Of a DNA stretch of 64,000 bases, positions 690 to 38,524 are shown in pieces. Position 1 is the stretch's first letter. Each line of letters begins with the position of its first letter. The notes under the pieces were generated by a model. That model did no database searches, was not told where the DNA came from, and saw nothing but the letters and a program-made list of their open reading frames with translations. Source of the DNA: Algoriphagus sp. Y33 (GTDB lineage Bacteria > Bacteroidota > Bacteroidia > Cytophagales > Cyclobacteriaceae); NCBI RefSeq assembly GCF_014838715.1, contig NZ_CP061947.1:3038001-3102000 (forward strand), in the 5' to 3' direction. A program made the translations under genes and the position numbers.

Positions 690-783
690 CATGTGTTTAT
701 ATTTTATCTTTCAATAGCCACATGGAATCTCGCATGCATTATAATCATTCCAATGTGTGACTTTTGAGTCATGCTCGATTTCA
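690..783 (-). repeat. Leader repeat, copy D (upstream of cut susC)
   Basis: Read on the minus strand this copy starts TGAAATCGAGCATG and ends ATATAAACACATG. It shares TGCGAGATTCCATGTGGC and the TATAAACACATG tail with copies at 35127-35216, 38303-38432 and 38433-38524. The left arm TGAAATCGAGCATG can pair with the internal CATGCGAGATTCCA (11 of 14 positions), giving a stem with a variable loop. The element points the same way as susC and ends about 20 bp before its ATG. Confidence 0.75.
697..735 (-). other. Mini-ORF in leader repeat copy D (12 codons)
   Basis: It translates to MRDSMWLLKDKI and ends with TAA followed by ACAC and an ATG at 692. The other two intact copies carry MRDSIWPLKDKL and MRDSMWPLRIKL in the same place. 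Most differences between copies are synonymous or conservative. Whether it is translated is unknown. Confidence 0.35.
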
Positions 784-878
784 AATAGACCGGGCTAGTC
801 CCCGGTAAGAGTGGTCGGGCTGTTGGCGCAGTTCGACCCTCATTTAATTCTTCAAAAGGATTTTTTCATAGGCTCGAA

Positions 879-1835
879 TTAATTTTTGCAGTTTTTATAG
901 TTAATGATCACATTTCCGTTTTGTAGGATTTCATAGTCAAAATCCGCTAAATGCTGAAGCCCGGAGAGTATATATTCCACTCCACTATTTGCATAAGCTG
1001 CCTTGATTAAGCAGCCATTCTTAGCGTATCCCCTCAACTCAATTTTCACATGATAGCTTTTGGCCAACAGTGCCACCACCTCGTCGAAAGGCAACAAATC
1101 AAACTTCACTTCATTGGATCTCCAGGCAGAAACCGCTTGGCTATTTACCCGGGAAACCTCCAGCTCCAGTGATGGTAATAAAATGGCTTGCTGGTCAGGA
1201 AGTAAAGTCACCTCCTTCTGATTCATGTTTGCCGGCACCACTTGTACCTTCCCTGTATTTACTGTGACCGCAGGAGCGGTTCCATCCATCACTACCATAT
1301 TAAAGCTCGTTCCCAGGACAGTGGTAGTCAGGCTCTCAGTCCGGACGATAAAAGGCTTGTCCGGATTCTTTGTCACTTCGAAAAAAGCTTCCCCTTCCAA
1401 CTCAACCACACGCCTATCCGTATCGAAAAACTCAGGAAAACTCAGGCTGGAGTTTACATTCAAATGAACACGGGTTCCGTCTGGCAATATGACTTTCCCA
1501 CGCTGGGAAGAATTGGTGCTGCGATGAAGAATCGGGATTTCAGGTTCAAAACTATACTCTTGGTATGCCGTGTAACCAGCCACAAAAACCAATACAGATG
1601 CTGCGATTCCAATCAGGTATTTTTTCCAGTCAATAACGAGCTCCCGGGATACAGCTTGTGGCAGCTTACTTTTAATTCTCCGCTTTATTTCCTCTTGTTC
1701 AGCCTCTGTCCAGACCAGGTTTTGATCCTTCTGCTGCAACCGTTCGAAAACCTCCTCTACCTGCTTCAACTCAGAAGCAGTGGCCTTTCCTGATGCCTTT
1801 TTATGAAGGAGTTCTACAAATTGCCTCTTGTCCAT
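879..1835 (-). CDS. FecR-family anti-sigma factor
   Basis: A 318-residue inner-membrane regulator. A short cytoplasmic N-terminal domain (residues 1-70) would bind the ECF sigma factor, one transmembrane helix lies at about 73-91 (KYLIGIAASVLVFVAGY), the periplasmic FecR domain spans about 112-205 (GKVILPDGTRVHLNVNSS, then EGEAFFEV), and a DUF4974-like domain occupies about 243-312 (FDLLPFDEVVALLAKSY). This is the usual Bacteroidetes arrangement and length. It lies between the sigma gene (2259-2804) and the STN-type susC (1-669) on the same strand, so the three probably form one surface-signalling system. The gap to the sigma gene is unusually long for such cassettes (423 bp) and contains a MITE-like repeat. 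Confidence 0.93.
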   Translation of the reverse strand: MDKRQFVELLHKKASGKATASELKQVEEVFERLQQKDQNLVWTEAEQEEIKRRIKSKLPQAVSRELVIDWKKYLIGIAASVLVFVAGYTAYQEYSFEPEIPILHRSTNSSQRGKVILPDGTRVHLNVNSSLSFPEFFDTDRRVVELEGEAFFEVTKNPDKPFIVRTESLTTTVLGTSFNMVVMDGTAPAVTVNTGKVQVVPANMNQKEVTLLPDQQAILLPSLELEVSRVNSQAVSAWRSNEVKFDLLPFDEVVALLAKSYHVKIELRGYAKNGCLIKAAYANSGVEYILSGLQHLADFDYEILQNGNVIINYKNCKN

Positions 1836-1962
1836 TGTATTTCTTTTGAAGAGTAGTCACATGAACTTTAAAAAATACTCGGTCGGATTTTAGATGTAAT
1901 AATTTGATAATACAGGTAATAAAAGGGTAACAGTACCACGTCATAGAATTAATAAGTATGGT

Positions 1963-2102
1963 TATCCGCAACGATGCCAGTATCCTCATTTTCTTTGGTA
2001 TAACAGCAGGAAGACCGATGATAGAAGACCGAAGTGGCCGTGACACTAGTCTTTTCCGAATCCTATAATGCTTTTATTGTTTTTCTGGCAGAAAAGCGGA
2101 TA
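1963..2102 (-). repeat. MITE-like dispersed element, copy 1
   Basis: A 140-bp segment bounded by TATCCGC at 1963-1969 and GCGGATA at 2096-2102, which are inverted repeats of each other. Its reverse complement matches 34958-35090: both begin TATCCGCTTTTCTGCCAG, share AAAAGCAT.TTAGGATTC and GGCCACTTC.GTCTT, and end TTGCGGATA. It fills a third of the 1836-2258 gap between the sigma and fecR genes. I see no gene in that gap. Confidence 0.6.
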
Positions 2103-2258
2103 TACATATTTCCGAAATGATGCCACTTGTATATCCCCTAATTTTCAGGACTCAGCCTGATAAACGCCCATTAGTCTTGATAGGGAGAACCTGCCAAACA
2201 AAGAACTTACAACTGTATTCTCCGCATAATCCTCTATGCATCAGTGGTTAAAAAACTT

Positions 2259-2804
2259 TCAGAAGAACAAAAAAACTTGCGTCAAAGAAGCTTTCAACAG
2301 CTTCATTCCCTTCTGCATATGCCCCTCTACTGTCCGCGTAGAAATCCCCAAGTTTTCAGCTATCTCGCCTGCGGTAAGTCCTTTTTTACCTCTTAGCTCC
2401 ATTACCTCCCTGCACTTAGGAGGCAATTCTGCCAGAGACTTTTCAAGCTGTATCAGCCGTGTTCCCTTCATATCATAAGAAGCTTCCTCCGGATCATGGC
2501 TTTCAACCTCTTCTGTCCACTCAAATTCCAGGTGCCATTTTTTGGTTCTGATCACATTGGCAGTCTGGTACTTGACTGAGTTATACAGGTAAGTGGGGAT
2601 GAATTGTATTTTTCGAGTGGGGGCATTTTCCCACACACTGGTAAACACCTCTTGGATCACATCCTCGCATTGTTGCTTATCTGCCAAGATGTTGTAAGCA
2701 TACTTAAAAAGTTTATCCCAGTATCGGTCAAACAGCCTATCAAATGCAACATAATTCCTCTGTTGGATCAAGGCATACAATTCGCTATCTGACAAGTTTT
2801 CCAT
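2259..2804 (-). CDS. RNA polymerase ECF sigma factor (Bacteroidetes FecI-like)
   Basis: A 181-residue sigma-70 family factor. Region 2 lies at about 20-90 (FDRLFDRYWDKLFKYAYNIL, QCEDVIQEVFTSVWEN) and region 4.2 at about 126-175 (LPPKCREVMELRGKKGLT, then the helix-turn-helix GEIAENLGISTRTVEGHM). It is followed on the same strand by fecR and an STN-containing susC. By analogy with FecI/FecR/FecA it is expected to be held by FecR and released when the receptor binds ligand, then to transcribe the receptor genes. No TAnnTTTG promoter was seen upstream (2805-2988). Confidence 0.93.
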   Translation of the reverse strand: MENLSDSELYALIQQRNYVAFDRLFDRYWDKLFKYAYNILADKQQCEDVIQEVFTSVWENAPTRKIQFIPTYLYNSVKYQTANVIRTKKWHLEFEWTEEVESHDPEEASYDMKGTRLIQLEKSLAELPPKCREVMELRGKKGLTAGEIAENLGISTRTVEGHMQKGMKLLKASLTQVFLFF

Positions 2805-2988
2805 TTCTGAAGTTGCTCAAAGCAAAGTTGTGCGGTCTCTTGCTCAAATGCTAAAAATCCCTGTTAAGTGTAATTTAAGTTTCTAACTCAAAAACAAGCA
2901 GGACACTACCTGGAACGGTTCAAACAAACTGTATGGAATCAGGTCGGTTTACGTACGCAATGAGAAACACCTAAGGTAATATCCAGTA

Positions 2989-4392
2989 TCACCCAACCAA
3001 CTCCTTCTCTATCTCTTCCAAAGACTTGCCCTTGGTCTCAGGCAATACAAAGTAAATCACCAAGAAACCGAACGCACATATTGCTCCATACAACCAAAAA
3101 TTATTCGCCCAACCGAGATTCTCCCGAATCGCGGGAAAGAAATAGGTCAGTGTAAAATTCCCAATCCAATGCGCTAAAGCGCCGATGGAAATAGCGGCGC
3201 CCCGAATCCGGGTAGGGAAAATCTCTGAAAGCACCACCCAAAGCAGCGGTGCCAGTGTGAAAGAATAAAACATCACATTGGTCAAAACAGCCAATACTAC
3301 CAAGTCTCCTCCAAGATCGATAAAGAAAAAATAGCCAATCAATCCATAAAGCATGGCCATCGCAGAAGTACCAATCAATAAGAGTTTCCTCCTTCCAAAT
3401 CTATCTACGGTGAAGATGGTAATAAAAACAGAAAGGACCATCACTCCACCGATTACCACAATATTCAGCATCATTTGCTTCAGATTGTAACCTGCCGCCT
3501 GAAAGATATCTGCGGCATAATAAATCACCACATTGATCCCGCTCCACTGCTGGAGAAAAGCCAAGAAAATACCGATCCCAAGTAGCTTCATGACTCTCAT
3601 CTGAAACAATTCTTTGAGATTTACATGGCCAAAATCACCTTCTCTCAATGTTGTTTTTACTTCAGCAATAGTATCATCCGCATACGCTTCACCTCCGATT
3701 TTTACAAGTATTTGTCTTGCCCTGGCTTCTTTCCTATTCTTAATCAACCAAGGCACGGACTCGGGTACAAAAAACATCAATACGAAAAACAGAAGCGCAG
3801 GAATAGCTTCTGCCGCAAACATCCATCTCCAGCCAATCTGCCCGCTCCAGCTCGCTGCTATCATCTCAAAACTAGCATCATCGGCCAGTTGTGTATCGGC
3901 CAGCGATATTTGCCAGTTGATCAACTGAGCCAAAAGCACTCCGATCATAATCAGCAGCTGATTGATAGTCACCATTTTCCCCCGCTTTTCCGGAGGGGAA
4001 AGTTCAGCAATGTAAAGGGGGGAAAGGTTCAGCGCCACTCCCATGGCCACACCGCCGATGATTCTATAGCAATTGAATTCCCAAAAAGTGCCCGACATGG
4101 CTGTTCCGAACGCAGACAATGAAAAGAGTAATCCGGAGAAGATCAGCAGTCTTTTGCGGCCCAATTTATCGCTGACAAGTATGCAAGCTCCTGCCCCTAT
4201 CATACAGCCAATCAACGCTGAACTCGTTCCCCAACCCTGATCTGCTGCGGATGTAACATTGAAAAACGGCTCATAAAATGGCTTTGCCCCTCCTATCACC
4301 ACCCAATCGTACCCAAATAAAAACCCTCCCAATGCTGCGGTGAAACTGATCAGCCAAATGTACGTTTGATTGTAAGAATAGGTAGGCTTCAT
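2989..4392 (-). CDS. MFS sugar porter (sugar:H+ symporter family)
   Basis: A 467-residue, 12-helix major facilitator of the sugar porter family. Signature features are the loop DKLGRKRLL after TM2, its repeat RFGRRKLL after TM8, PESVPWLIKNRKEARA at the end of the N-terminal half, the QQWSGINVVIYYA stretch in TM7, and the C-terminal PETKGKSLEEIEKEL. It probably imports a monosaccharide across the inner membrane. I chose ATG 4392 (MKPTYSYNQ) over the in-frame 4464 start, because the 24 extra residues are polar or proline-rich and unlike this family. It lies near a sulfatase and a SusC/SusD pair on the same strand, so it may import sugars released by that system. Confidence 0.9.
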   Translation of the reverse strand: MKPTYSYNQTYIWLISFTAALGGFLFGYDWVVIGGAKPFYEPFFNVTSAADQGWGTSSALIGCMIGAGACILVSDKLGRKRLLIFSGLLFSLSAFGTAMSGTFWEFNCYRIIGGVAMGVALNLSPLYIAELSPPEKRGKMVTINQLLIMIGVLLAQLINWQISLADTQLADDASFEMIAASWSGQIGWRWMFAAEAIPALLFFVLMFFVPESVPWLIKNRKEARARQILVKIGGEAYADDTIAEVKTTLREGDFGHVNLKELFQMRVMKLLGIGIFLAFLQQWSGINVVIYYAADIFQAAGYNLKQMMLNIVVIGGVMVLSVFITIFTVDRFGRRKLLLIGTSAMAMLYGLIGYFFFIDLGGDLVVLAVLTNVMFYSFTLAPLLWVVLSEIFPTRIRGAAISIGALAHWIGNFTLTYFFPAIRENLGWANNFWLYGAICAFGFLVIYFVLPETKGKSLEEIEKELVG

Positions 4393-4640
4393 GGGTTCAG
4401 GTTTGGGTTTCGGATAAAGCGTAAAATCGAAGTGATAAAATAGAGTTTTTTCCCACTTCCGCAATCCTGTGCTTACCCTGCGATAGGATTTACAAGAAAC
4501 TTTCAGAAAACAACTTATGAATTAGACCTTTGCCTACGCACATAAAAAACCAAACTGAATCCAGCTTCTGGAGAAGCAGGATAACACACACCGAAAAAAA
4601 ACTCAGTTCCCGGTACCCAACAGTGAGATTGCCGCACTCC

Positions 4641-4706
4641 TACGTCATTCGCAATGACGTAATCCCTACTCTCCCCGTAAACCTCCGTGCTCACAGCGGT
4701 TAAATC
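4641..4706 (-). repeat. Palindrome plus a copy of the TTAACCAC dispersed repeat
   Basis: The 348-bp gap 4393-4740 holds no gene. At 4641-4661 there is a perfect 9-bp inverted repeat, TACGTCATT-CGC-AATGACGTA. At 4673-4706 the minus strand reads GATTTAACCGCTGTGAGCA followed by CGGAGGTTTACGGGG, a member of a family also found at 33449-33483, 50211-50247 and 50641-50677. Confidence 0.55.
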
Positions 4707-4740
4707 AATCGTTCAGAGCCCCCTTGAGGTTTAATACGGC

Positions 4741-6420
4741 TTATTTGTTACGTCTTTCCAGAATTTCCTCTACTTTTTCTTTGCTGGCCCCAAAAATTTT
4801 TCCTTCGGAAGCATCCTCGACAAAGCGATCTACAAACTGTTGGCTGAGCTCTGAATTGTCCTTGTATTTCTCCCGCAGTTTTTCCAACTGCGCATGTAGC
4901 TCCGCTCTTACTTCAGCATATTCCGGATCGTTATAAACATTTTTCAACTCCTTGGGATCTTTTTCCCGATCAATCAATTCCCATTCATCCTCTACAAAAT
5001 AATAGTGGATCAGCTTGTACTCCTTTGTTACGATAGCATAATGCCGATTGACCATATGTTCAGCCGGATATTCATAATAATGGTAGTACACCGCATCACG
5101 GATCCATTGATCCTCATTGCCCGTCAGTAGGGGAAGCATGCTCTCACCCTGCATATCAGCCGGAGCTTCCACTCCTGCCAAATCCAAGAATGTCTGGGCA
5201 AAATCCAGGTTTTGAACCATCGCATCGGACCTGATTCCCGCCTTTGTTTTTCCGGGCCAAGCCATAAGAAGTGGTGTCTTAAATGATTCATCATAGACAA
5301 AACGCTTATCAAACCAACCGTGCTCTCCCAGATAAAACCCCTGATCCGAAGTATAAACGATGATGGTGTTTTCCAAAAGATCATTAGCCTCCAGGTAATC
5401 CAACAAGCGGCCTACATTTTCATCGACTGACTTGATAGTCCCCAAGTAATCCTGCATATACCGCTGATACTTCCATTTCATTTTATCCTCATCGGTCATG
5501 GAAGGATAGCTTTTCTTGAACTCTTCATTGACTTTGGAGTACGCTCTGTCATAGTTTTCCCGCTGGGAAGGAGTCAATCTTTTGTAGTCGTTTTCAAAGC
5601 GGATTTTATCATACCTCACTTCTTCTACTCCCAATTCATCCATTACAGCCGGATAAACTTTATTATCTCCTGCCCAACCCATATCGTTCAAAATGCTCAT
5701 TTCCGCCTCTGCGGCAGCATGTGTTCTGCCCGAGTAATCATCAAACAGCGTAGTAGGCTCAGGAAAAGTTCTAGTAGTAAACTCCTCCAGATGTCTTTCG
5801 GCCATTATCCACGATCTATGGGGAGCTTTGTGCAGATACATCAGCATAAATGGATCCTCTGTATTCCGCTCCTTCTCCAGCCATTCCAAGGTCATGTCGG
5901 TCACGATATCCGTCACATATCCTTCCACTTGGATTTCACCTTCATATTTGGTGATAAAGTCAGGGTTGTAGTACGACCCCTGTCCCGGCAAAATCTTGAA
6001 TTGGTCAAACCCCTTCGGATTGTTACCAAAATGAAGCTTACCAAACATGGCTGTCTGATAGCCTGCGTCTTGGAGGAGTTGGGGAAACGTCACATTAGTC
6101 GTATCAAAAGGATAATGATTATCTATTTTTCCATTGATATGGGAGTGTTTTCCGGTCAAAATAGTAGCTCTTGATGGAGCGCAGATTGAATTCGTAACGG
6201 ATGCATTGGTAAATAAAATGCCCATATCTGCGATTCTGTCGATATTCGGTGTTTCGATCAGGCTATTGTCATAAGCAGAAATTGCCTGATAGGCATGATC
6301 ATCCGACATAATGAAAATTATATTGGGGCGTTCTGCGGTTTTCTCTCCCTCTTCGGTTTTACAGGAAAAAGCAAGGACGGCAAGTGAGCCAAGAAAAATT
6401 GATTTTAATGTATGTTTCAT
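4741..6420 (-). CDS. Lipoprotein sulfatase (family S1, formylglycine type)
   Basis: A 559-residue sulfatase with a lipoprotein signal (LAVLAFSC, lipidated Cys20). The formylglycine motif C-x-P-S-R is present as CAPSRATILTG with Cys80. Metal ligands are likely Asp40/Asp41 (IMSDDHAYQ) and the DQG of YTSDQGFYLGEHGWFDKR. The stretch APHRSWIMAERHLEEF with FDDYSGR resembles heparan/GlcNAc-6-O-sulfatase-like members, but that substrate call is only a resemblance. The C-terminal part after about residue 440 fits a DUF4976-like cap. It needs an anaerobic-type or FGE maturase encoded elsewhere. It sits between a sugar porter and a SusC/SusD pair, suggesting desulfation of a sulfated glycan. The lipid anchor places it in the periplasm or at the cell surface. 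Confidence 0.92.
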   Translation of the reverse strand: MKHTLKSIFLGSLAVLAFSCKTEEGEKTAERPNIIFIMSDDHAYQAISAYDNSLIETPNIDRIADMGILFTNASVTNSICAPSRATILTGKHSHINGKIDNHYPFDTTNVTFPQLLQDAGYQTAMFGKLHFGNNPKGFDQFKILPGQGSYYNPDFITKYEGEIQVEGYVTDIVTDMTLEWLEKERNTEDPFMLMYLHKAPHRSWIMAERHLEEFTTRTFPEPTTLFDDYSGRTHAAAEAEMSILNDMGWAGDNKVYPAVMDELGVEEVRYDKIRFENDYKRLTPSQRENYDRAYSKVNEEFKKSYPSMTDEDKMKWKYQRYMQDYLGTIKSVDENVGRLLDYLEANDLLENTIIVYTSDQGFYLGEHGWFDKRFVYDESFKTPLLMAWPGKTKAGIRSDAMVQNLDFAQTFLDLAGVEAPADMQGESMLPLLTGNEDQWIRDAVYYHYYEYPAEHMVNRHYAIVTKEYKLIHYYFVEDEWELIDREKDPKELKNVYNDPEYAEVRAELHAQLEKLREKYKDNSELSQQFVDRFVEDASEGKIFGASKEKVEEILERRNK

Positions 6421-6606
6421 TCGTTAATTGGTTATTTTGGATTAAGGTTAGTTTTATGCCCTGGAAGAAGCGTATCACTTATTCTATGAGCAGAGGTTAA
6501 AAACCATTAAGAAATGCTTTACTCTAGATTTTAGGCCACTTCTGTCTCCCTTCTTCGATTTTCCGTCAGAGCGCACAGGTTACATAATAAACATCATTAC
6601 CAATAA

Positions 6607-7107
6607 TTACTCCTTAATAAAACTGTCCTCAAATCTCAAGAAATGACAGGTATATCCATTGGGGTTTTTCACCAAATAGTCCTGATGGTAATCCTCTGCA
6701 GGCCAAAAAGGGGAAAATGGCTCCAGAGTGGTCACAACCTTATTAGGCCACTTTCCGGAATCATCTACGATGGCTATCATTTCTTCGGCAATTGCTTTTT
6801 CTTCCTCATCTTGGTAGAAAATCGCAGAGCGATAGCTCGATCCTATATCGTTCCCTTGCTGATCAACGGTAGTGGGATTGTGCATTCTAAAAAAATAATC
6901 CAAGATCTCCTTGAAGGAAGTTTCATTGGGATCATACGTCAGTTCAATGCCTTCCGCATGACCTGGATGATTTCTGTAGGTAGGGTTCTCATTTTGACCT
7001 CCCTGGTAGCCAACTTCAGTATCCACAATCCCCGGACGTGTCCTAAAGAGATCTTCCATCCCCCAGAAACAGCCTCCCGCAATGTATGCTTTTTTAAACT
7101 TGTCCAT
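6607..7107 (-). CDS. msrA: Peptide-methionine (S)-S-oxide reductase
   Basis: A 166-residue MsrA. The catalytic motif [10 protein letters not shown] puts the nucleophilic cysteine at residue 13, and the family blocks [31 protein letters not shown] and [20 protein letters not shown] are complete. Cys154 near the C-terminus (GYTCHF) is a possible resolving residue. It reduces S-sulfoxide methionine in oxidised proteins using thioredoxin. There is no signal peptide, so it is cytoplasmic. It stands alone between the sulfatase and susD on the same strand, with no sign of a functional link to them. Confidence 0.95.
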
Positions 7108-7257
7108 ATTATTTTAATTCCATCATTAACGATACGTTTAGGGATATGATCCAATCCCCAGAATGTTCTTAATGTGAAGGTAAGTTAAGAAGGTACTTGT
7201 ACAAAACCACAGACAACATTTGTTACGGTTTATTAATCAACCAATTAGTCACTTCAA

Positions 7258-7285
7258 AAAAGGACTCCGATTTTGGAGCCCTTTT
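7258..7285 (-). terminator. Rho-independent terminator of the susC/susD operon
   Basis: AAAAGGACTCC-GATTTT-GGAGCCCTTTT forms an 11-bp stem with one mismatch. On the minus strand it lies about 135 bp after the susD stop and is followed by a T-run. The rest of the 7108-7420 gap shows nothing else. Confidence 0.7.
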
Positions 7286-7420
7286 CCTGTGTTTGTATAA
7301 ATTTTAATTGATCATAACTTCCGTGACGAAGGAAGCGGTATAACCGGCACCGAAATTTATTCGGAAAATCCCGCGCGGCATAAAATCATCCCTCCGTGTG
7401 ATTAAATCTTACAATACCTC

Positions 7421-8977
7421 TTAATAACCCGGATTCTGCGGAACAAGATTAGGATTGTTCTGCATTTCCGGAAGTGGGTAAGGCATCAGGTAATGTCTCG
7501 CCTGAAGAGCTTGGTTAGAGCTTGGGTTTACATGTCCTTCAAAATTATCAAATCCATTGGTAGACTCATTATACACTTTGCGCAAGCGAAGCATATCGAA
7601 CCAGGTAATCTGCTCGTAGCAGAGCTCATGCCATCTCTCTCTCAAGACAGCGTCCCGAAATGTATCTGAAGTGAATCCACCCAAAGATGGTGTAGTCAGT
7701 CCAGCCCTGTCCCGAATTCTTTTCAAACTCTCAACTGCCAGGGCATTTGGTCCACCAACTTCATTCTGTGCCTCAGCATAAATCAACAATACCTCTGCAA
7801 ATCTGATCAAAGGTACGTTCAGGTTATTTGCCCTTGTACCGGGTTGATCCTTAGATCCGAGAGCTATCTGATTAAAATGCTTGAAGATATAAGGAGCTCC
7901 CAGATCAAATTCTGCCCCACTGCCATTTTCATAATAAGTCGTATAGAAATATCCTTCCTGATTGACTGCTCTGAGATCACCCGGTTCATAAGAATTGTAG
8001 AATTCCTCTGTAGGCACTGTGCTTCCAGTTCCGGATGGGCCGGCAAAAGTTACCGGCTTGAAGTTCGGAAACATGTCGTTCATCGGATTTCCGGCCACCA
8101 CCACATTGTATTGAAGCATAAAAATATGCTCTAATCTATTGTCATTGTTTTCGTTATGAATTGCTTTGTAAGTAGGGAATAAATTGATCAATGATGGATT
8201 GCTCGCCCCATACTCAATAACTTCTTTGGCCTTATCAGCAGCCAGCTGATAGTGAGATGCTCCCATACTCAAAGGAAAACCTGCCATAGTCAAATACACC
8301 TTGGAAAGCAGTGATTTGGCGGCAGCCAAAGACGCTCTTCCGCTTTCATCCATCCAAGGCAAGCCCGCTGCCTCTGCTGCTTTTAAATCTTCCACAATCA
8401 ATGCATATAGTGCTTCCTGGGTAGCAGGTGACGGCTTAAAATCCTCTGAACTAGCAGTTTGAGGAGTGGTAATCAATGGCGCATCACCCCATAGTCTGAC
8501 TACATAGAAATAGGCCCATGCCCTAAGAAATCTAGCTTCACCGAGAATTTTGGTCTTCTGGGCCTCATCCATAGGGGTAATGCCCGGAACCTTCTCCAAC
8601 ACCAGGTTTGCCTGGGCAATAACCCGGTACAATCCATTCCACCAGTTGATCATGTGCTGGGTTCTTGCATCATAGATCAGCCCATATAAATTGTTTAAAT
8701 CTGAATTTTGGGCTGTTTCAGTTGTAGAAGTTCCTGTGGGAGCTTCAAGCAATTGCCAGTTAGCTGAAAATATCCCTGCCCCTCCTCCGATAAACCGCGT
8801 ATCAGCGTAAACAGCCGCAAGTGCCGCTTCTGCGTGGTCAGGAATCGTGTAGAAGCTTTCAGGTGTCAAATTAGATGGATCCTCTTCTTCCAAGAAGCTC
8901 GAACAACCTACAAATCCTGCTACCAACATTCCAAACAGGAATAATCTGCCTGCTTTGTTATATATGTAATTTTTCAT
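7421..8977 (-). CDS. SusD/RagB-family nutrient-binding lipoprotein
   Basis: A 518-residue outer-membrane lipoprotein (lipobox VAGFVGC, Cys25). Typical SusD features are the N-terminal FLEEEDPSNLTPESFYTIPDHAEAA region, TPR-like helices with ARFLRAWAYFYVVRLWGDAPL at about 150-170, PLIRFAEVLLIYAEAQNEVG at about 395-415, and the C-terminal ERWHELCYEQITWFDMLRLR with a final NPGY. It starts 27 bp after the stop of the susC gene on the same strand, so the two are an operon encoding a lidded outer-membrane importer. The glycan cannot be told. The nearby sulfatase hints at a sulfated polymer. Confidence 0.95.
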   Translation of the reverse strand: MKNYIYNKAGRLFLFGMLVAGFVGCSSFLEEEDPSNLTPESFYTIPDHAEAALAAVYADTRFIGGGAGIFSANWQLLEAPTGTSTTETAQNSDLNNLYGLIYDARTQHMINWWNGLYRVIAQANLVLEKVPGITPMDEAQKTKILGEARFLRAWAYFYVVRLWGDAPLITTPQTASSEDFKPSPATQEALYALIVEDLKAAEAAGLPWMDESGRASLAAAKSLLSKVYLTMAGFPLSMGASHYQLAADKAKEVIEYGASNPSLINLFPTYKAIHNENNDNRLEHIFMLQYNVVVAGNPMNDMFPNFKPVTFAGPSGTGSTVPTEEFYNSYEPGDLRAVNQEGYFYTTYYENGSGAEFDLGAPYIFKHFNQIALGSKDQPGTRANNLNVPLIRFAEVLLIYAEAQNEVGGPNALAVESLKRIRDRAGLTTPSLGGFTSDTFRDAVLRERWHELCYEQITWFDMLRLRKVYNESTNGFDNFEGHVNPSSNQALQARHYLMPYPLPEMQNNPNLVPQNPGY

Positions 8978-31126: not shown

Positions 31127-31363
31127 TATAGAAGAACAAATTAGCCAATTCAAGAACCTCCGGAACCAAAGGCGTAACGTCTTCTTTAATTTGAAGCGAA
31201 ATTAAGATGACTTTGGGCGGGAAATACAATTTTTTGAGTAAAAAAACAAAAAAAAATTGTAGAGGGAAGTAATAATAAATAGGATTTTATCCATAAATAC
31301 TTTGCTTAGTTTTTTTTTAAACGGCAAGCATTCTTAGATTGGCGAGAATTAAATAATTGATAA

Positions 31364-31597
31364 ATGGCACAAATGATTAAAAAAGGGAAAGAACTAATTC
31401 GTATCTGCCCTACCAATTCGCTTAAAATTGAATATTCTGTAGATGAGGGCGAGACTTGGAATCAACGATATATGGGTAATCCTGCCAGTCCGGGGGAGTT
31501 TACAGACCTTGCTGACGGAGGCAAAGAGTTATTGGGAGAAAGTCCAAAAGGGAGTTTTTACTCCAAGAATAAAGGCAAATCCTGGCATAAGCGATAG
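31364..31597 (+). CDS. Small protein with two Asp-box motifs, 77 aa
   Basis: The product is short, soluble and has no signal peptide. It contains two Asp-box (BNR) motifs of the form S-x-D/N-x-G-x-T/S-W: SVDEGETW at about 25-32 and SKNKGKSWH at about 67-75. Asp-boxes usually occur as beta-hairpins in sialidase-type propellers, so a free two-motif protein is odd. The start is either 31364 or the in-frame ATG 31373 (MIKKGKELIRICPTNSLKIE). Coding character is supported by regular codon use and the two matching motifs. It stands alone; the function is not known. Confidence 0.6.
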   Translation: MAQMIKKGKELIRICPTNSLKIEYSVDEGETWNQRYMGNPASPGEFTDLADGGKELLGESPKGSFYSKNKGKSWHKR

Positions 31598-31873
31598 TGT
31601 TTATTCTGGGTTTCCAGATTATCATGCATGTAAGAAGTTGTCAAGCAGTACTACATCCCATAGTTTGAAGAGTTAATTGTGCTTAAAAATTAAGTGTAAC
31701 CGGAGATTCTAAAGCAAATAATTTAATTGAATTACAATTCAAAAATTGAACACAGGAAAGCTGATTGTAAATACTACTCAGCCCCAAGTCTCAAAACATA
31801 TTGTCTTTCAATGAATTATTTGCTTCTTTAAGCCAATCAAGCTCCGGGATTCTAACTAGCAAATATCCAAACC

Positions 31874-32383
31874 ATGCTGAAAAAAATCGGGTTAGTTATT
31901 TTGGTTGTCCTACTTGCAATCCAGTTTATTCCTTATGAGAAAAATGAGGGTAAGCCTGCTGGGCACCCTATCTCCGGTAGCTACGATATTCCGGGTAATG
32001 TGAATAAGCTTCTTGTAAACGCCTGTAATAACTGTCACTCCAATACCTCCCAATATCCATGGTATGCAAGTGTGGAACCCATAGGTTATTGGCTAAACAG
32101 CCACATACAAGAGGGAAAAGGTGATTTGAACTTTGATGAATTCACTGGGAGACCGTTGGCTTGGCAAAACCATAAATTGGAAGAAATTGCTGAACTGGTG
32201 GAAAATAAAGAGATGCCCTTGAAGTCTTACACTTACTTTGGACTTCATCCTGAAGCAAATCTTTCTGATGCGGACCGTCAAGTGATTGTTGATTGGGCAA
32301 AAGACCAAATGGCTTACTTGGTGGCGACTTATCCGCCGGACAGCCTGGTTATGAAAAGAAGGAATCCTCCTCCGGCAGAATAA
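31874..32383 (+). CDS. Haem-binding domain protein (cytochrome c-like), membrane-anchored
   Basis: A 169-residue protein with an N-terminal helix (KKIGLVILVVLLAIQFIPYE) acting as signal or anchor, then a haem-binding domain with CNNCHSNTSQYPWYASVEP: Cys51, Cys54 and His55 form a c-type CxxCH site. The rest (PLAWQNHKLEEIAELVENKEMPLKSY, then ADRQVIVDWAKDQMAYL) matches the Bacteroidetes haem_bd family. Covalent haem attachment outside the inner membrane and an electron-transfer role are expected. It stands between two Gfo/Idh-type oxidoreductase genes on the same strand. Confidence 0.85.
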   Translation: MLKKIGLVILVVLLAIQFIPYEKNEGKPAGHPISGSYDIPGNVNKLLVNACNNCHSNTSQYPWYASVEPIGYWLNSHIQEGKGDLNFDEFTGRPLAWQNHKLEEIAELVENKEMPLKSYTYFGLHPEANLSDADRQVIVDWAKDQMAYLVATYPPDSLVMKRRNPPPAE

Positions 32384-32446
32384 ACAATCTTAAAATTTAA
32401 GACATTAAATAGTTTTGGTTTAAACCGCATGCCCTATTTTTAGGTT

Positions 32447-33448
32447 ATGAGCAAAATCCAAGGTAACGAAGTAAGGTGGGGAATTCTAGGCGTGGGCAAT
32501 GTCTGCGAAGTCAAATCCGCACCGGCAATAAATCTCATTCCCAACAGTAAGATAGTGGCAGTCATGCGCCGCTCAGAAGAAAAAGTAAAAGACTACGCCA
32601 AGCGACACGGAATTGCCAAATGGTATACTTCAGCAAGTGACCTTGTCAATGATCCTGAAGTAAACGCAATCTACATTGCCACCCCTCCAAATGCCCATTT
32701 GGATCTTGCTACACTTGCGGCATCGGCAGGCAAACCTGTATATGTGGAGAAACCCATGGCGAGGACTTATGCCGAATGTCTGCAGATGATAGATGTCTGC
32801 AAGAAAGCGAATGTTCCACTGTACGTCGCCTATTACCGAAGAGAACTACCGCACTTTCGCAAAATCAAAGAGCTGATTTCGGAAGGAATACTTGGAGATA
32901 TCCGTACAGTTCACATCAATCTCAAGCAAAAGCTGAATGCTTCTCTGATCACAAAAGTGGAAACCAATTGGCGTGTAGACCCCGAGCTAGCCGGCGGTGG
33001 ATACTTCTTTGACCTAGCCTCTCATCAGCTAGACTTGTTGGATTTCTTCTTTGGGAAAATCATCCATGCAAATGGATTTTCCTCGAATCAAGCAAACACT
33101 TATAAAGCTGAAGATATCGTTGTTGGAAGTTTTGTTTTCGAAAGCGGAGTTCTGGGTAGTGGAAATTGGTGCTTCACTACCGCTGCAAATGCTGAGATCG
33201 ACGAAACTACAATCTATGGAAGTAAAGGAACCATCCAGTTTGAGACCTTCGGAAAGGGAGAATTCACCCTCATTACAGATGAAAGAGGAATTGAAAGTTT
33301 CAACTTTGAACTTCCTAAACATATTCAGGAGCCGTTGATCAAAACCATTGTAGGCGATCTACTGGGGACCGAAACTTGCAAAAGTACAGGAATCAGTGGA
33401 GCAAGAGCAAACTGGGTGATGGATCAACTGGTAAAGGAAAGAGTTTAA
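32447..33448 (+). CDS. Gfo/Idh/MocA-family oxidoreductase (cytoplasmic)
   Basis: A 333-residue NAD(P)-dependent dehydrogenase without a signal peptide. The Rossmann motif WGILGVGNVCEVKSAPAI (about 11-28), the IATPPNAHLDL block and the signature VEKPMARTYAEC (about 98-109) are all intact, and GGGYFFDLASHQLDLLDFF gives the C-terminal catalytic segment with its conserved Asp/His. A possible -7 element TAGTTTTG at 32410-32417 precedes the start by 30 bp. It probably oxidises or epimerises a sugar or inositol. It could be cotranscribed with the haem-binding gene 63 bp upstream. Confidence 0.92.
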   Translation: MSKIQGNEVRWGILGVGNVCEVKSAPAINLIPNSKIVAVMRRSEEKVKDYAKRHGIAKWYTSASDLVNDPEVNAIYIATPPNAHLDLATLAASAGKPVYVEKPMARTYAECLQMIDVCKKANVPLYVAYYRRELPHFRKIKELISEGILGDIRTVHINLKQKLNASLITKVETNWRVDPELAGGGYFFDLASHQLDLLDFFFGKIIHANGFSSNQANTYKAEDIVVGSFVFESGVLGSGNWCFTTAANAEIDETTIYGSKGTIQFETFGKGEFTLITDERGIESFNFELPKHIQEPLIKTIVGDLLGTETCKSTGISGARANWVMDQLVKERV

Positions 33449-33483
33449 TTAACCACGGTGAGCGCAGAGTTTTACGCAGAGGG
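33449..33483 (+). repeat. TTAACCAC dispersed repeat, plus-strand copy
   Basis: TTAACCACGGTGAGCGCAG followed by AGTTTTACGCAGAGG begins at the stop codon of the preceding gene. Related minus-strand copies lie at 4673-4706, 50211-50247 and 50641-50677. Shortly after, 33503-33532 is an inverted half copy of the paired-hairpin repeat (CCCCGGTTTATGGCTCCAC...). Confidence 0.5.
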
Positions 33484-33687
33484 CACACAAGCTAATCTTC
33501 CGCCCCGGTTTATGGCTCCACAAACAGAAATGCTGTTGGTGGACACCTACCCTCCTGAATGCATAAAGGCCATCTTTGAATATTCCTTGCCATCATCCGA
33601 ATTTTCTTACCCTCACTTGAGTTTACTCTAGCAGGTAGCATTTTGCTACTTTTCAGCTAACCATTTTTAACAACTATAAGTAAAGTA

Positions 33688-34482
33688 ATGGATTTAAAAT
33701 TAGAAGACAAAAAAGCATTTATCAGCGGATCTACCGCAGGGATTGGGTTTGCTATCGCAAAGAGATTCTTAGTAGAAGGAGCCTCAGTAGTTATTAACGG
33801 CAGATCACAAGAAAGTGTGGACAAGGCTATAGCCGCGCTCAAATCAGAAACCGGCAGTGATAAAGTTAGTGGAATCCCCGCTGATTTCTCTAAAGTGGAA
33901 GAGATAGATCATTTGCTGAGCACTCTTCCAGAAGTGGATATTTTGATCAATAATGCAGGGATTTTTGAGCCAAAAGCCTTTGCAGAAATTCCTGATGAAG
34001 ATTGGTTTAGATTCTTTGAGATGAACGTCATGAGTGGAATCCGCCTTTCTAGACAATATTTTCCGAAAATGCTTGCTAAAAACTGGGGAAGAATAATCTT
34101 CATTTCCAGTGAGTCAGGCGTTTTCATACCGGACGAAATGATCCATTACGGCATGACCAAAACAGCCCAATTGGCAGTGGCAAGGGGATTGGCTGAGCTC
34201 ACCAAAGGAAGCAATGTCACGGTAAACTCAATCCTTCCCGGCCCGACCAAGTCAAAAGGTGTGGGCAAATTCTTAGAAGACTTATCTGAATCCACCGGTA
34301 AATCAATACAGAAAGTCGAGGAAGAATTCTTTCAGGATATGCGTCCTACTTCATTGATTCAGCGATTTGCATCGGTGGAAGAAGTGGCGGACACGGTGGT
34401 CTATTATTCCAGCCCTCTGGCTTCCGCCACCAACGGAGCTTCTATCAGGGTAGAAGGAGGACTGGTAAGATCCATACTGTAA
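33688..34482 (+). CDS. SDR-family oxidoreductase
   Basis: A 264-residue classical short-chain dehydrogenase. The cofactor motif is FISGSTAGIGFAI (residues 11-23), with NNAG at about 88-91 (DILINNAGIF), the catalytic Ser in IFISSESG and Tyr154-x3-Lys158 (HYGMTKTAQ). Arg37 in INGRSQESVD favours NADP(H). The C-terminal GASIRVEGGLVRSI is typical. The substrate is unknown. It follows the Gfo/Idh gene by 239 bp on the same strand, with a repeat between them, so cotranscription is uncertain. Confidence 0.92.
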   Translation: MDLKLEDKKAFISGSTAGIGFAIAKRFLVEGASVVINGRSQESVDKAIAALKSETGSDKVSGIPADFSKVEEIDHLLSTLPEVDILINNAGIFEPKAFAEIPDEDWFRFFEMNVMSGIRLSRQYFPKMLAKNWGRIIFISSESGVFIPDEMIHYGMTKTAQLAVARGLAELTKGSNVTVNSILPGPTKSKGVGKFLEDLSESTGKSIQKVEEEFFQDMRPTSLIQRFASVEEVADTVVYYSSPLASATNGASIRVEGGLVRSIL

Positions 34483-34563
34483 TCAGAATTTGGCGTGAAA
34501 CTCCGATGCCGCCGTTCATGTCACCACTTCTTCGAAGCTTGTGTCAACAGCGCTCTGCCACTA

Positions 34564-34630
34564 TTCCTTTCATCAGCTCCGCCGCCGTTCCTTTCATCAG
34601 CTCTGCCGCCGTTCGTGTCCTCACGAACGG
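34564..34630 (+). repeat. Short tandem repeat ending in a perfect hairpin
   Basis: The unit TCCTTTCATCAGCTCCGCCG (24 bp with CCGT) occurs twice with one difference and a partial third, ending in CCGTTCGTG-TCCT-CACGAACGG (34609-34630), the hairpin also seen at 18784-18805. No gene was found in the 734-bp gap 34483-35216, which also holds a MITE-like element and a leader repeat. Confidence 0.6.
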
Positions 34631-34957
34631 CCTTCAACAACCTTTTTCCCATCAAAAACACTCACAAAGGTTCAGCTCCAAAAGCTAGTTTGCCCTGTGG
34701 TGATTGGCAGGTATAGTGAAAAATCCCATACTGACTTGCCTAAAACTGCCTGTCGGTAAGGTCCCTCGTTAATAGCAAATGCCAAAAAAAAATTGGCTCA
34801 ACTTTATAATTTTTCAATTTGACACAATATATTTAACATTAAGGCACCTTATCCCAAGTAAATACCGCAAAGCAACTTATAACTTGTTTTATCTGTGTCT
34901 TTTAGCAGATATTAGATGAAAGTCAAAAAAAGCAGGTAACCTTATTCCATGTATAGC

Positions 34958-35090
34958 TATCCGCTTTTCTGCCAGTAAAAGCATCTTAGGATTCAGAAAA
35001 CGTAAGTGTTGAGGCCACTTCCGTCTTCCTGACTGGCAGGCGTCATCCATCTTCCAACAAGGAAAATGGATGATGACTCCATTGCGGATA
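34958..35090 (+). repeat. MITE-like dispersed element, copy 2
   Basis: A 133-bp segment bounded by TATCCGC (34958-34964) and GCGGATA (35084-35090). It is the inverted counterpart of 1963-2102. Compared with that copy it lacks a few bases after TCTGCCAG and differs mostly in the middle, where CATCCAT and ATGGATG could form an internal hairpin. Confidence 0.6.
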
Positions 35091-35126
35091 ATCATATTGC
35101 TTTAACTATACCCAACCCAATAACCG

Positions 35127-35216
35127 ATGAAATCGAGCATGTCTTGTAAAACACACATTCAGATGATTTAACTATGCGAGATTCCATATGGCCTTTAAAA
35201 GACAAATTATAACCAT
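35127..35216 (+). repeat. Leader repeat, copy A (upstream of the sorbosone-dehydrogenase-like gene)
   Basis: It starts ATGAAATCGAGCATGTC, contains TATGCGAGATTCCATATGGC and ends AAATTATAACCAT, running directly into the ATG at 35217, so the start codon of the gene occupies the position of the terminal ATG of the element. Orientation is the same as the gene. Confidence 0.75.
35174..35212 (+). other. Mini-ORF in leader repeat copy A (12 codons)
   Basis: It translates to MRDSIWPLKDKL, with its TAA ending exactly 4 nt before the ATG of the gene at 35217. The same spacing and nearly the same peptide occur in copies C and D. Confidence 0.35.
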
Positions 35217-38024
35217 ATGAAACAAACTTACCGATCAATTACAGTGCTGAGCCTAGCCCTGTTGCTGGGATTCCTTTCCTGTTCGGAACCCGAAAAAAAA
35301 GAATCAATCGAGAAACCTGAAGATAACCGCTTCACAAAAGTAGTCCTTACCGAAGGAATGGATGAGCCTATGGAAATGACTTTTCTGCCTGACAAAAAAA
35401 TCCTATTTGTAGAGCGAAAAGGCGGAGTGAAAATTCTGGATGAAAACACCGGCGAAGTCACCCTCGTAGCCACTATCCCTGTCAATACCAAATATACCAA
35501 TAAAGAAGGGGTAGTCCGTGAGGCAGAGGAAGGACTGATGGGAGTCATTGCTCATCCCGACTTTTCGAAAAATCATTGGATCTATCTCTACTATGCTGAT
35601 CCTGAAGACAAGCAACACGTACTCGCTAGATGGGAATTGGACGGGCACACGTTGGTCGAATCATCCAAAAAAGTCATTTTAAGCGTTCCTACACAGAGGG
35701 AAGAATGCTGCCATACAGGCGGCGGGATGGTCTTTGACCAAGAAGGCAACTTGTACTTAACTGTAGGAAACAACACGGTGAATCCGAGTTCCGGAACTTC
35801 AAATCTGGACGAGCGTCCGGGACATGAAAATTCCGATGATCAGCGCGCTCCCGGAAACACCAATGATTTGAGAGGAAAAATCCTTCGAATCCACCCGGAA
35901 GATGACGGCAGCTATACTATTCCTAAAGGCAATCTTTTTCCTGAAGGAACAGAAAAAACAAAGCCTGAGATCTACACCATGGGACACAGAAATCCCTGGA
36001 GACCCACGCTGGACAGTAAAACCGGCTATTTATACTGGGGGGAAGTAGGTCCTGATGCTGCAAAAGACTCCATTTGGGGTCCTCGCGGGTATGATGAATT
36101 CAACCAAGCCAAGGGACCCGGCTTCTTCGGCTGGCCCTATTTCATCGGTGATAATATCCCTTATACACGTCATGATTTAGAAACTGATACCTATGGGGAG
36201 CCATACGATGTGAATAAGCCTGTAAATGAATCCGTAAACAATACGGGACTACGTGACTTGCCAACCCCTGTAGTTCCGGCCATGATCTGGTACCCTTATG
36301 GGGTTTCTGAAGAATTCCCACTTCTGGGAAGCTCCGGGAGAAGTGCTACAGGAGGACCGGTATTTAGAAAAGCAGATTTCAAATCAAATGCCCCTTATGT
36401 TTTCCCAGCTTACTATGAAGGCAAATGGCTAATAGTAGACTTTATGAGAGGTTGGATCATGTCGGTGACCATGAATGACAATGGTGACTATGAATCCATG
36501 GAGCGATTCCTACCACATGACACATTCAGTTCGGCAATTGACATGGATTTTGGCCCGGATGGCGCATTATACATTTTAGAATATGGTAGTGCTTGGTTCC
36601 GTGGAAATGCCAATTCCCGAATCGTAAAAATCGAATACAATGCAGGCAACCGTAAACCTAACGTGGTCGCCACTTCTGATAAATTGTCCGGAGCAATTCC
36701 ATTTACTGCCAATTTCTCTTCAGAAGGCTCAAACGACTTCGATGAGTATGACCAAGGTAAACTTGATTACACGTGGAAAATAAATGGTGCGGATGGAGCG
36801 ACTACCGAATTGAAAGGAGCTGACGCAACTTATACTTTTGAAACAGCGGGAAAACATCAGGTAACCTTGACTGTGACCGATACCAAGGGTGAGTCCAACA
36901 CTTCCTCCTTCGATGTAATAGCGGGAAATGACAGGCCTCAAGTCACTATAGACTTCAAAGGAGCCAATAAATCATTCTATTTCGGGGAGAATCCTCTTCC
37001 ATACAGCATTACTGTAAATGACGATGAGGATGGAAGTACTGATGACAGTAGAATACATGCAAATGAAGTGGCAGTAACCTTTGACTATGTCCCTTCCGGA
37101 TTTGACCCGATCGAGATCGCTTCCAAACAAAGTGGCGTGGAATCCGAAGCTTTGGAAAACATCGGCAAAAATCTGATCGAAGCCAGCGACTGTAAATCTT
37201 GTCACCAATATGCTGAAACATCCATCGGACCAAGCTATCAAGCCGTAGCGACCAAGTACGAAAATACTGCCGAAACTGTCGATATGTTGGTAGACAAGAT
37301 CATCAACGGTGGAGCCGGAATCTGGGGAGAGCATGCGATGAGCGCACATCCCCAGCTATCCAAAGCTGATGCAAAACGTATGGTGGACTATATCATGAAT
37401 ATGAATACGGTGAAGGCAACAGTTAGATCACTGCCTTTGTCCGGATCGGTAAAAACTACAATCCCGGAAGGAGAGGACGGTCAAGGAAGTTTCCTTTTAC
37501 AGGCATCCTATACAGATAAAGGCAACGGAGACGTGCCTGCCTTATCAGGAAGTGATTTTATAGCTTTGAGAAATCCCTATTTGGATCCGCAAAGTGCTGA
37601 ACTAAGAAAAGGCGTAAATCTGATGACCACCCCCAGTGTGAATTTCTTTATGGTGGGTGATCAGTCATACATAGGTTTCAAAAACTTGGATCTAAGCGGT
37701 ATCAGGGAAATCATAGTATATGCCGGCATTAGCGAAAGAGTAGATGCCAAAGGCGGGTCTATAGAAATCAGAATTGACTCACCTACCGGAGAAGTAATCG
37801 GGCAGACAGAACGGCTGATAGCAAAACAAGTAGTAGGTTTCAGACCGCCGCCTAATATGAACTTTATAGATTGGAGAAGGCAAAACTCCAGTCTGGGAAA
37901 AGTAACACTTTCGCCCGTCAGCGGCAGACATGATGTATACATTATTTTCAAAAACCCTGAAGCAAAAGACGAAGAGATTCTGATGAGTGTGAACGAGGTG
38001 CAGTTCTCGAATACACTCAGGTAA
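35217..38024 (+). CDS. Multidomain lipoprotein: sorbosone/glucose dehydrogenase-like propeller, PKD domain, cytochrome c
   Basis: A 935-residue lipoprotein (LLLGFLSC, Cys22). Residues about 40-480 form a GSDH-type beta-propeller of the soluble PQQ glucose/sorbosone dehydrogenase family (GLMGVIAHPDFSKNHWIYLY, YTMGHRNPWRPTLD, FGPDGALYILEYGSAWF). A PKD-like domain follows (about 490-585: YTFETAGKHQVTLTVTDTKG). A class I cytochrome c lies at about 645-735, with Cys659, Cys662, His663 (CKSCH) and probable sixth ligand Met708. The last ~180 residues look like a CBM6-type beta-sandwich. Electrons from sugar oxidation could pass internally from PQQ to haem and on to the periplasmic chain. A terminator follows at 38041. 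Confidence 0.88.
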   Translation: MKQTYRSITVLSLALLLGFLSCSEPEKKESIEKPEDNRFTKVVLTEGMDEPMEMTFLPDKKILFVERKGGVKILDENTGEVTLVATIPVNTKYTNKEGVVREAEEGLMGVIAHPDFSKNHWIYLYYADPEDKQHVLARWELDGHTLVESSKKVILSVPTQREECCHTGGGMVFDQEGNLYLTVGNNTVNPSSGTSNLDERPGHENSDDQRAPGNTNDLRGKILRIHPEDDGSYTIPKGNLFPEGTEKTKPEIYTMGHRNPWRPTLDSKTGYLYWGEVGPDAAKDSIWGPRGYDEFNQAKGPGFFGWPYFIGDNIPYTRHDLETDTYGEPYDVNKPVNESVNNTGLRDLPTPVVPAMIWYPYGVSEEFPLLGSSGRSATGGPVFRKADFKSNAPYVFPAYYEGKWLIVDFMRGWIMSVTMNDNGDYESMERFLPHDTFSSAIDMDFGPDGALYILEYGSAWFRGNANSRIVKIEYNAGNRKPNVVATSDKLSGAIPFTANFSSEGSNDFDEYDQGKLDYTWKINGADGATTELKGADATYTFETAGKHQVTLTVTDTKGESNTSSFDVIAGNDRPQVTIDFKGANKSFYFGENPLPYSITVNDDEDGSTDDSRIHANEVAVTFDYVPSGFDPIEIASKQSGVESEALENIGKNLIEASDCKSCHQYAETSIGPSYQAVATKYENTAETVDMLVDKIINGGAGIWGEHAMSAHPQLSKADAKRMVDYIMNMNTVKATVRSLPLSGSVKTTIPEGEDGQGSFLLQASYTDKGNGDVPALSGSDFIALRNPYLDPQSAELRKGVNLMTTPSVNFFMVGDQSYIGFKNLDLSGIREIIVYAGISERVDAKGGSIEIRIDSPTGEVIGQTERLIAKQVVGFRPPPNMNFIDWRRQNSSLGKVTLSPVSGRHDVYIIFKNPEAKDEEILMSVNEVQFSNTLR

Positions 38025-38040
38025 ATCTTGATTATCAATC

Positions 38041-38077
38041 AAAAGCCCTGTTTTTCATTGGAGAACAGGGCTTTTTT
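38041..38077 (+). terminator. Rho-independent terminator after the sorbosone-dehydrogenase-like gene
   Basis: AAAAGCCCTGTT-(11 nt)-AACAGGGCTTTT is a perfect 12-bp stem followed by TT, starting 16 bp after the stop codon. Confidence 0.9.
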
Positions 38078-38302
38078 AAACCGAAAAGGATCCCGGAGTT
38101 TTTCATGGAAAGCCTGGTTATCCTGCTTCTGGAGAAGCCGGATTTAGCTCCCTTTTTCATAATTAGGGCTGAAAGCCTGTTATAACAAAGCTCAGCTCGA
38201 CAGCGCTGGGCATAAAAAATATATAAAGTCTCCAATTTCTGAGAGTTGAATTAATTATTTGGAAATCTAAATTAATATTTAGATGTTTGTCTAAATACCT
38301 AA

Positions 38303-38432
38303 ATGAAATCGAGCCTACCTGCCACAGGCAGGCATAACTCCAGAATCCCCCACAGGGATGATTATAACCTTGCGAGATTCCATAGCCTGTCCCGACTTTT
38401 CGGGATGGCAATTAAAAGACTATTATAAACAC
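38303..38432 (+). repeat. Leader repeat, copy B (first of a tandem pair)
   Basis: It starts ATGAAATCGAGC, contains TTGCGAGATTCCATAG and ends TATTATAAACAC, where copy C begins at once. It is longer than the others because of extra segments, one of them a hairpin around TCCCGACTTTTCGGGA. The 12-codon mini-ORF is disrupted and its start is TTG. The 505-bp gap 38025-38529 is explained by the terminator and this tandem pair. Confidence 0.7.
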
Positions 38433-38524
38433 ATGAAATCGAGCATGTCGAGATCGAAACACAGAGGCATGACAATAATGCATGCGAGATTCCATGTGGC
38501 CGCTAAGAATCAAATTATAAACAC
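38433..38524 (+). repeat. Leader repeat, copy C (abuts the sdpR-like gene)
   Basis: It starts ATGAAATCGAGCATGTCG, contains CATGCGAGATTCCATGTGGC and ends AAATTATAAACAC. The next bases are ATGAAATGAATTC: the terminal ATG opens a two-codon frame whose TGA overlaps the ATG of the regulator gene at 38530. Confidence 0.75.
38482..38520 (+). other. Mini-ORF in leader repeat copy C (12 codons)
   Basis: It translates to MRDSMWPLRIKL, with TAA ending 4 nt before the ATG at 38525. Confidence 0.35.

Follow-up and report, generated by a model that had tools for sequence, protein, structure and literature searches.

Single-strand transposition of the IS200/IS605 type keeps the target on the left of the element, has a right end borne by the element and produces no duplication; a preference for the lagging-strand template is a trait of some members, e.g. 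IS608. HEARO RNAs, longer than the repeat described here and tied to IscB, are reported to integrate after ATGA or GTGA. The repetitive extragenic palindromic (REP) and REPIN sequences of RAYT carry a GTAG or CGTC tag at one end (PMC3733652). Rickettsia palindromic elements are described (PMC10969869) as mobile and inserted in open reading frames in frame, the genes staying readable. Reported here is a repeat element of about 91 bp found in a 64,000 nt stretch of Algoriphagus sp. Y33 (assembly GCF_014838715.1, contig NZ_CP061947.1, positions 3,038,001 to 3,102,000; the whole stretch is termed the window). The element is mobile, has precise borders, one orientation and a conserved fold, is present in high copy number, is spread through the family and is enriched at start codons above the share given by its target. 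The favored reading, to which we give about an even chance, is that of a non-autonomous, strand-specific mobile element moved in trans in the manner of IS200/IS605 and surviving best where it rebuilds a start codon.

The Y33 genome is one contig of 6.38 Mb. An 18-mer of the right arm gives 123 genome-wide matches with 3 or fewer mismatches (68 on the plus and 55 on the minus strand) versus 2 for a reversed control. Eighty stretches of 20 kb were taken, most around 100 of the 123 matches, 3 around transposase matches and 7 elsewhere; merged with the window these form 73 segments (1.664 Mb), a sample chosen around known copies. A complete copy was required to have a left arm, a right arm and the right end, by which 110 of 194 candidates were kept and 84, with an end absent or too many mismatches, were dropped. 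Among the 110 complete copies, 23 run straight into another copy and 87 are terminal. The left six bases read ATGAAA in 92 of the 110 and the right six bases in 103. The covariance model R1 gives 124 matches in the same 1.664 Mb, but start-codon counts rest on the 110-copy set; the seven stretches taken elsewhere show only two weak R1 matches. There are also 32 unmatched left arms in the 1.664 Mb, many of which are variants with an extra hairpin.

In the family, R1 matches 70 of 148 genomes and 46 of 84 genera, counted with stricter filters and a scoring of 28 candidates in each genome. A related pattern has exact matches, among those listed, at no fewer than 80 loci in Algoriphagus, Cyclobacterium, Lunatimonas, Lunatibacter, Pararhodonellum, Anditalea and Pleomorphovibrio, which does not imply absence elsewhere. 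The phages and plasmids searched show no match, and R1 confirmed none of the 54 viral contigs with a 16-mer (0/54). None of the literature entries listed describes the element.

The preliminary description had proposed that the element could be mobile, and this is borne out by 15 comparisons of filled and empty sites between species, all at start codons and with near base-exact insertion; empty sites were found via the coding flank, a method that favors sites next to conserved genes and hence start codons. Nine loci are filled in Y33 and empty in a relative (G028), three are filled in G028 and empty in Y33, and three are filled in named species and empty in Y33. The sites are as follows.

Filled in Y33 and empty in G028 (from 793 kb of G028): 2885695, 4790220, 5480776 (part of an array), 5684594, 5887879, 6111979, 6119440, 6120097
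Filled in named species and empty in Y33: L206, L238 array, L240 array

At the eleven Y33/G028 empty sites (the eight above and the three reciprocal ones) there is no right arm within 150 nt upstream. At the ninth locus, the sorbosone-dehydrogenase-like gene of the window has an 81%-identical homolog in G028 with no element at its start; the leader reads CCAATAACCAATGAAACAAACTTACCG in G028 and CCAATAACCG-ATGAAATCGAG...CATATGAAACAAACTTACCG in Y33. A 3-mismatch match to the short right-arm pattern in L136 lies approximately 150 nt upstream, too distant for a copy at this site. For L238 the Y33 site reads ATGATGAAA and the border is exact to 3 nt only. Left uncounted were 95260, where approximately 90 bp in G028 resemble (by eye) a decayed copy of another subfamily; G028 copy 8, where the spacing is unclear; L233, where an array is filled, Y33 is without a copy and the upstream side is unaligned; and 4981249, which is filled in both species.

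Three sites are informative about the borders. At 2885695 the left side is TTGAAA, the empty site is TTGAAA and the right end is ATGAAA; thus the ATG most likely came with the element and replaced a TTG start. In the array of L240, ATGAAA stands on the left, and ATGAAT both on the right and at the empty site, which places the insertion point after ATGAA with the next A inside the element. The third site is a copy that interrupts a RAYT transposase gene (L014:1372-1460, the same as L325, at 154.3 kb of the Y33 genome; intact relatives of the gene are present in other genomes), where AAGAA is found on the left and TTGAA on the right. From the three sites together the target is therefore read as NTGAA and the element as A-TCGAG...CANATGAA. 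A later point change could account for any one of these cases by itself. On this evidence the ATG at the right end is most probably the element's own.

The element integrates in one orientation directly 3′ of NTGAA (mostly ATGAA), the target staying on the left, and its own right end CANATGAA joins the downstream DNA. At a gene start this rebuilds ATGAA(A) and leaves the open reading frame intact, with the element forming the last ~90 bases of the 5′ leader; its own ATGAA would then serve as the start. By analogy to IS200/IS605, a protein acting in trans would excise and insert the folded single copy as one piece, with recognition of NTGAA on one strand. The 15 pairs do show strand-specific insertion 3′ of a fixed short target with no duplication apparent, as in IS200/IS605, with later point change possible at the informative sites.

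The element may be mobile as described but use other machinery (a DDE transposase, a tyrosine recombinase or another enzyme), a short duplication of GAA or ATGAA mimicking an element-borne end. ATGAAA stands on both sides in most copies, as expected from a duplication, but the unequal flanks at 2885695, L240 and the RAYT gene are at odds with one, subject to the same possible point changes, and there are no terminal inverted repeats at the ends (by eye). We regard other machinery as possible but rather doubtful; a further point in its favor is the genome G014, discussed below.

In Y33, 67 of the 87 terminal copies (77%) have a right-end ATG that begins an open reading frame of 60 codons or more, and in 65 of the 87 the frame has 100 codons or more. 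Named genomes of other species have 107 complete copies (ten incomplete ones were dropped), of which 35 are followed by another copy and 4 are too near the locus end; 50 of the 68 terminal copies open an open reading frame of at least 60 codons. In five other genera, where the 63 matches are strongly diverged, 23 of 30 cut-out copies open an open reading frame of this length at the terminal ATG; a right flank common to three of the seven misses resembles a further copy (by eye). Random orientation and positions far from start codons, named in the preliminary description as the outcome that would speak against it, are contradicted by the counts in all three sets.

That description also held that a shared orientation and a start-codon border are unlike random insertion. 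The 77% observed agrees with this, but part of the effect comes from the target itself, because ATGAA is asymmetric and a common gene start. Outside coding DNA and the element, 36.6-38.1% of ATGAAA sites either are called as starts or begin an open reading frame of at least 60 codons, a share derived from a home-made gene caller (76% called coding) and recomputed with four coding masks (0.366 to 0.381). The 67/87 exceeds this background with p = 1.7e-13 to 1.7e-14. Of 31 young copies, meaning those with a near twin (nearest-neighbor identity 0.93 or higher), 19 are at starts, versus 48 of 56 older copies (Fisher p = 0.016). Counted once per right flank, young copies are at starts in 19 of 29 cases, above 0.38 (p = 0.0025). 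As young copies exceed the background and old copies exceed young ones, both insertion and retention seem to favor starts. Over-representation at starts would then come partly from an insertion preference and partly from longer retention.

Another account is target preference with purifying selection alone, in which the element inserts at any ATGAA, copies within genes are lost and starts are not special. It agrees with the 37-38% of non-coding ATGAAA sites that are starts anyway, and with young copies being at starts less often than old ones. It does not predict the excess of 67/87 over 0.37-0.38 or that of the young copies, two results that depend on the home-made caller and on a detection that requires a recognizable right end and so favors start copies. 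This account is considered unlikely. A further reading is start-codon homing, in which insertion would be aimed at translation starts beyond ATGAA, via a TTCCAT guide and a feature of active starts, and the element ATG would take over. It is offered tentatively, as a possibility we think somewhat improbable; to our knowledge such a safe-site strategy is not known for any bacterial mobile element. Two genes carry different element copies at their start in two species (Y33 3305043 and L225; Y33 2054838 and L242), which represent repeated insertions or turnover at one site.

The fold was assessed with alignment A1, which consists of 60 sequences hand-picked from 133 listed. A1 supports, through compensatory changes, the helices P1 (columns 5-14/58-67), P2 (15-18/31-34) and P4 (69-74/98-103), while helix P3 is weak (62.9%). 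The preliminary description proposed that the arms pair into a stem; a stem is present, but the supported structure consists of these three stems, not one. Over 21 pairs and 1199 cells, 90.7% are paired versus 17.2-43.8% in slid structures, a comparison that favors the structure because it was drawn after viewing the copies. Covariation is 0.184 versus 0.065 in shuffled alignments and is reached by none of 500 shuffles; pairs with a double change are not in excess (7 versus 6.9 in shuffles). RNAalifold recovers P2 and P4 only. P1 changes blockwise among subfamilies (AATCGAGC/GCGAGATT, AATGCCC/GGGCATT, AATACCC/GGGTATT, AATAGCC/GGCTATT, AACATCC/GGATGTT). Next to P1 lies a TTCCAT that hardly varies and that, in stem P4, pairs with the ATGAA of the right end. 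In A1 none of the three pairs formed by the ATG varies, and columns 72/100 of P4, beside the start codon, show GC 24, CG 16 and AU 12. TTCCAT, able to pair with the target as well as with the element's own right-end ATGAA, may act as the recognition guide.

A fold that includes the start codon could also be read as a cis-acting regulatory RNA, kept at starts because P4 controls translation. The compensatory changes at columns 72/100 and the higher share of older copies at starts are consistent with this. However, the 151 proteins encoded downstream, some of them truncated at the locus end, show no dominant class, only clusters of four, three and three and eight pairs; these small clusters indicate neither an obvious regulon nor an element-borne gene. 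A cis-regulatory RNA or riboswitch would be expected to have a coherent gene set, and here the largest similarity cluster is 4. Rfam gives no match, either across the window at gathering score or for 38280-38560 at E-values up to 1. P4 is similarly intact in copies away from starts (mean 5.2 of 6 pairs, n = 20) and at starts (5.4, n = 65; two unscorable). In the one insertion shared by the two species, P4 is short of one Watson-Crick pair in each copy, and the copy inside the broken RAYT gene keeps a matching partner for its TTGAA right end. An explanation by regulatory RNA is accordingly judged improbable. An upstream open reading frame coupled to the gene, from the element ATG to an overlapping TGA, was considered and rejected; only 19 of 110 copies end at an overlap, and the spacing modulo 3 leaves remainders of 1, 2 and 0 in 55, 33 and 22 copies.

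The earlier suggestion of a 5′ leader thus holds by position in the 67 terminal copies at starts. The suggestion of a riboregulator is not supported, given the lack of a dominant downstream class, an Rfam match, conserved upstream-reading-frame coupling and a surplus of G-U relative to A-C in the stems (15 versus 13), and given the P4 pair losses. A regulatory role of P4 is possible and nothing here backs it. The G-U count also bears on RNA-mediated insertion, in which an element transcript would be copied into DNA at starts by a reverse transcriptase, a bacterial analog of short interspersed elements. The start share above the DNA-target prediction and the structured, sense-oriented copies at starts fit such a route; the G-U count and the one copy inside a gene, away from its start, do not, and it is thought very improbable.

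Several results weigh against the favored reading of an IS200/IS605-like element moved in trans. No mobilizer was found by PF01797, RAYT and TnpB searches in the genomes covered. PF01797 (Y1_Tnp) is present in 52 of 59 genomes of the genus, and its counts do not visibly track copy number (no statistic was computed). G014 has 120 R1 matches and no PF01797 match; a protein search gives one partial RAYT-like match in G014 (query residues 60-160), and the mobilizer may have been lost from this genome. The RAYTs viewed in Y33 (two plus the interrupted one) stand among repeats of different sequence (by eye). Replication-strand bias is absent: start copies are co-oriented with the fork in 40 of 67 cases versus 103 of 156 for ATGAAA genes, and non-start copies in 15 of 20. 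Thus the lagging-strand template preference of IS608 is not seen, and together with the G014 result this speaks against a simple IS608-like case. Two of the nine Y33/G028 sites read ATGCGA or ATGGAA in the relative, which blurs the target; ordinary divergence can explain them. Of four sequences folded singly, three show no advantage over shuffles (z = −0.77, −0.88 and −1.08; the fourth −3.55), and the G-U and A-C counts favor neither strand as the one that folds. In the sampled stretches the sign of the GC skew switches around 1.75 and 4.85 Mb, and a dnaA match is at base 397; the replication origin of Y33 may lie away from dnaA.

RAYT was considered as the partner, as suggested by the copy inside a RAYT gene, and is not supported for the RAYTs looked at: they sit among other repeats and no clean correlation is seen, with RAYT matches in 50 of 71 genomes. 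A scan of 66 Y1/RAYT loci for both arms gave a complete copy beside one Y1 gene (L117, ~120 bp off). Two intact-looking RAYT genes of Y33, 2920599-2921021 and 4199177-4199632, each lie among their own distinct palindromic repeats (by eye); a further, partial RAYT match lies at 4342979-4343230. In another genome (G016, L341) a variant right end is found inside a RAYT gene. TnpB (PF07282) was rejected as the partner, with matches in 4 of 71 genomes and none in Y33; one genome (G062) has 15 TnpB-type matches and 67 of the 71 are without any. An autonomous longer version was sought among 31 right ends lacking a near main-type left arm in 3.07 Mb, many of which belong to other subfamilies with their own left arm. 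Twelve of the 31 have a main-type left arm 206-2659 bp upstream; ten of these were translated, and open reading frames of at least 100 codons look like ordinary host genes (by eye, with no family search) or are absent.

In the window, the four copies of the preliminary description were recovered at 690-783 (minus), 35127-35216, 38303-38432 and 38433-38524 (plus). R1 matches three of them, with E-values of 9.2e-19 to 7.5e-16 and slightly extended ends; the 38303-38432 copy, which has two extra hairpins and keeps its ends, is not reported. Copies and neighboring open reading frames are listed below, the gene names of the sorbosone-dehydrogenase-like and sdpR-like frames being those of the preliminary description.

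688..784, minus strand: copy 1, left flank TTGAAA, right end CACATGAAA, R1 score 105.7 bits
35127..35221, plus strand: copy 2, whose terminal ATGAA begins the 935-codon sorbosone-dehydrogenase-like gene; site empty in relative G028
35217..38024, plus strand: sorbosone-dehydrogenase-like open reading frame, its start codon formed by the right end of copy 2
38303..38432, plus strand: copy 3, longer variant with two extra hairpins (left arm; between P1 and P4), abuts copy 4
38433..38529, plus strand: copy 4, terminal ATGAA directly 5′ of the sdpR-like start (ATG at 38530)
38530..38784, plus strand: sdpR-like open reading frame, 84 codons, adjoins copy 4
40456-41097, minus strand: IS200-like Y1 transposase open reading frame, ~1 kb beyond the sdpRI-like genes

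The arms are shared in general, as first described, but are not identical in all four copies: the left arm at 38303 is TGAAATCGAGCCTACC and the right arm at 35127 is TATGCGAGATTCCATATGGC. The distance from the terminal ATG of the element to the gene ATG is 0 at 35217, +5 at 38530 and +23 at the susC-like gene; in the last case (copy 1) the terminal ATG starts an 8-codon open reading frame that overlaps the susC-like gene start 23 nt downstream. Extra GC-rich hairpins are present in some copies (38303-38432 and others) at two recurring places, in the left arm after CGAG and between P1 and P4, and look as if another small palindromic repeat inserts into the element.

If the favored reading is correct, one small mobile element has rewritten the translation start of 67 or more genes in a single genome, and of genes in many genera of the family, with the genes themselves kept. 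This would be a natural route for exchanging 5′ leaders, and annotated leaders and starts in these genomes would partly be mobile DNA. The element would also be a compact system, with one target, one guide-like motif and covarying folds, for tracing the mobilizer.

Compared with the non-autonomous and palindrome-associated elements of IS200/IS605, the element likewise has a single orientation, inserts 3′ of a fixed short sequence that stays on its left, has a right end of similar sequence that is its own, and folds near the ends. It differs in its length of ~91 bp with a branched fold, in a target that coincides with start codons, and in that no partner transposase and no replication-strand bias were found. 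With HEARO/IscB it shares, if the HEARO site is as reported, a structured element and an ATGA-like integration site, but there is no match to HEARO (RF02033) in the window at gathering score or in 38280-38560 up to E = 1. As with miniature inverted-repeat transposable elements (MITEs), it is short, non-autonomous mobile DNA; unlike MITEs it shows, by eye, no inverted relationship between its ends A-TCGAG and CANATGAA. Regarding the target-site duplication of MITEs, ATGAA is on both sides in most copies but unequal at informative sites, and none is demonstrated. Similar to REP/REPIN moved by RAYT (TnpA-REP), the element is short, folded and without coding capacity, with many dispersed copies. 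However, it lies at gene starts in the sense orientation, its copies do not flank a cognate RAYT at the 66 Y1/RAYT loci, and the RAYTs viewed in Y33 stand among other repeats. By eye, neither end of alignment A1 carries the GTAG or CGTC tag (PMC3733652). Finally, Rickettsia palindromic elements (PMC10969869) resemble the element in being mobile and palindromic and in keeping the gene readable, but the element reported here precedes the open reading frame and supplies its start codon.

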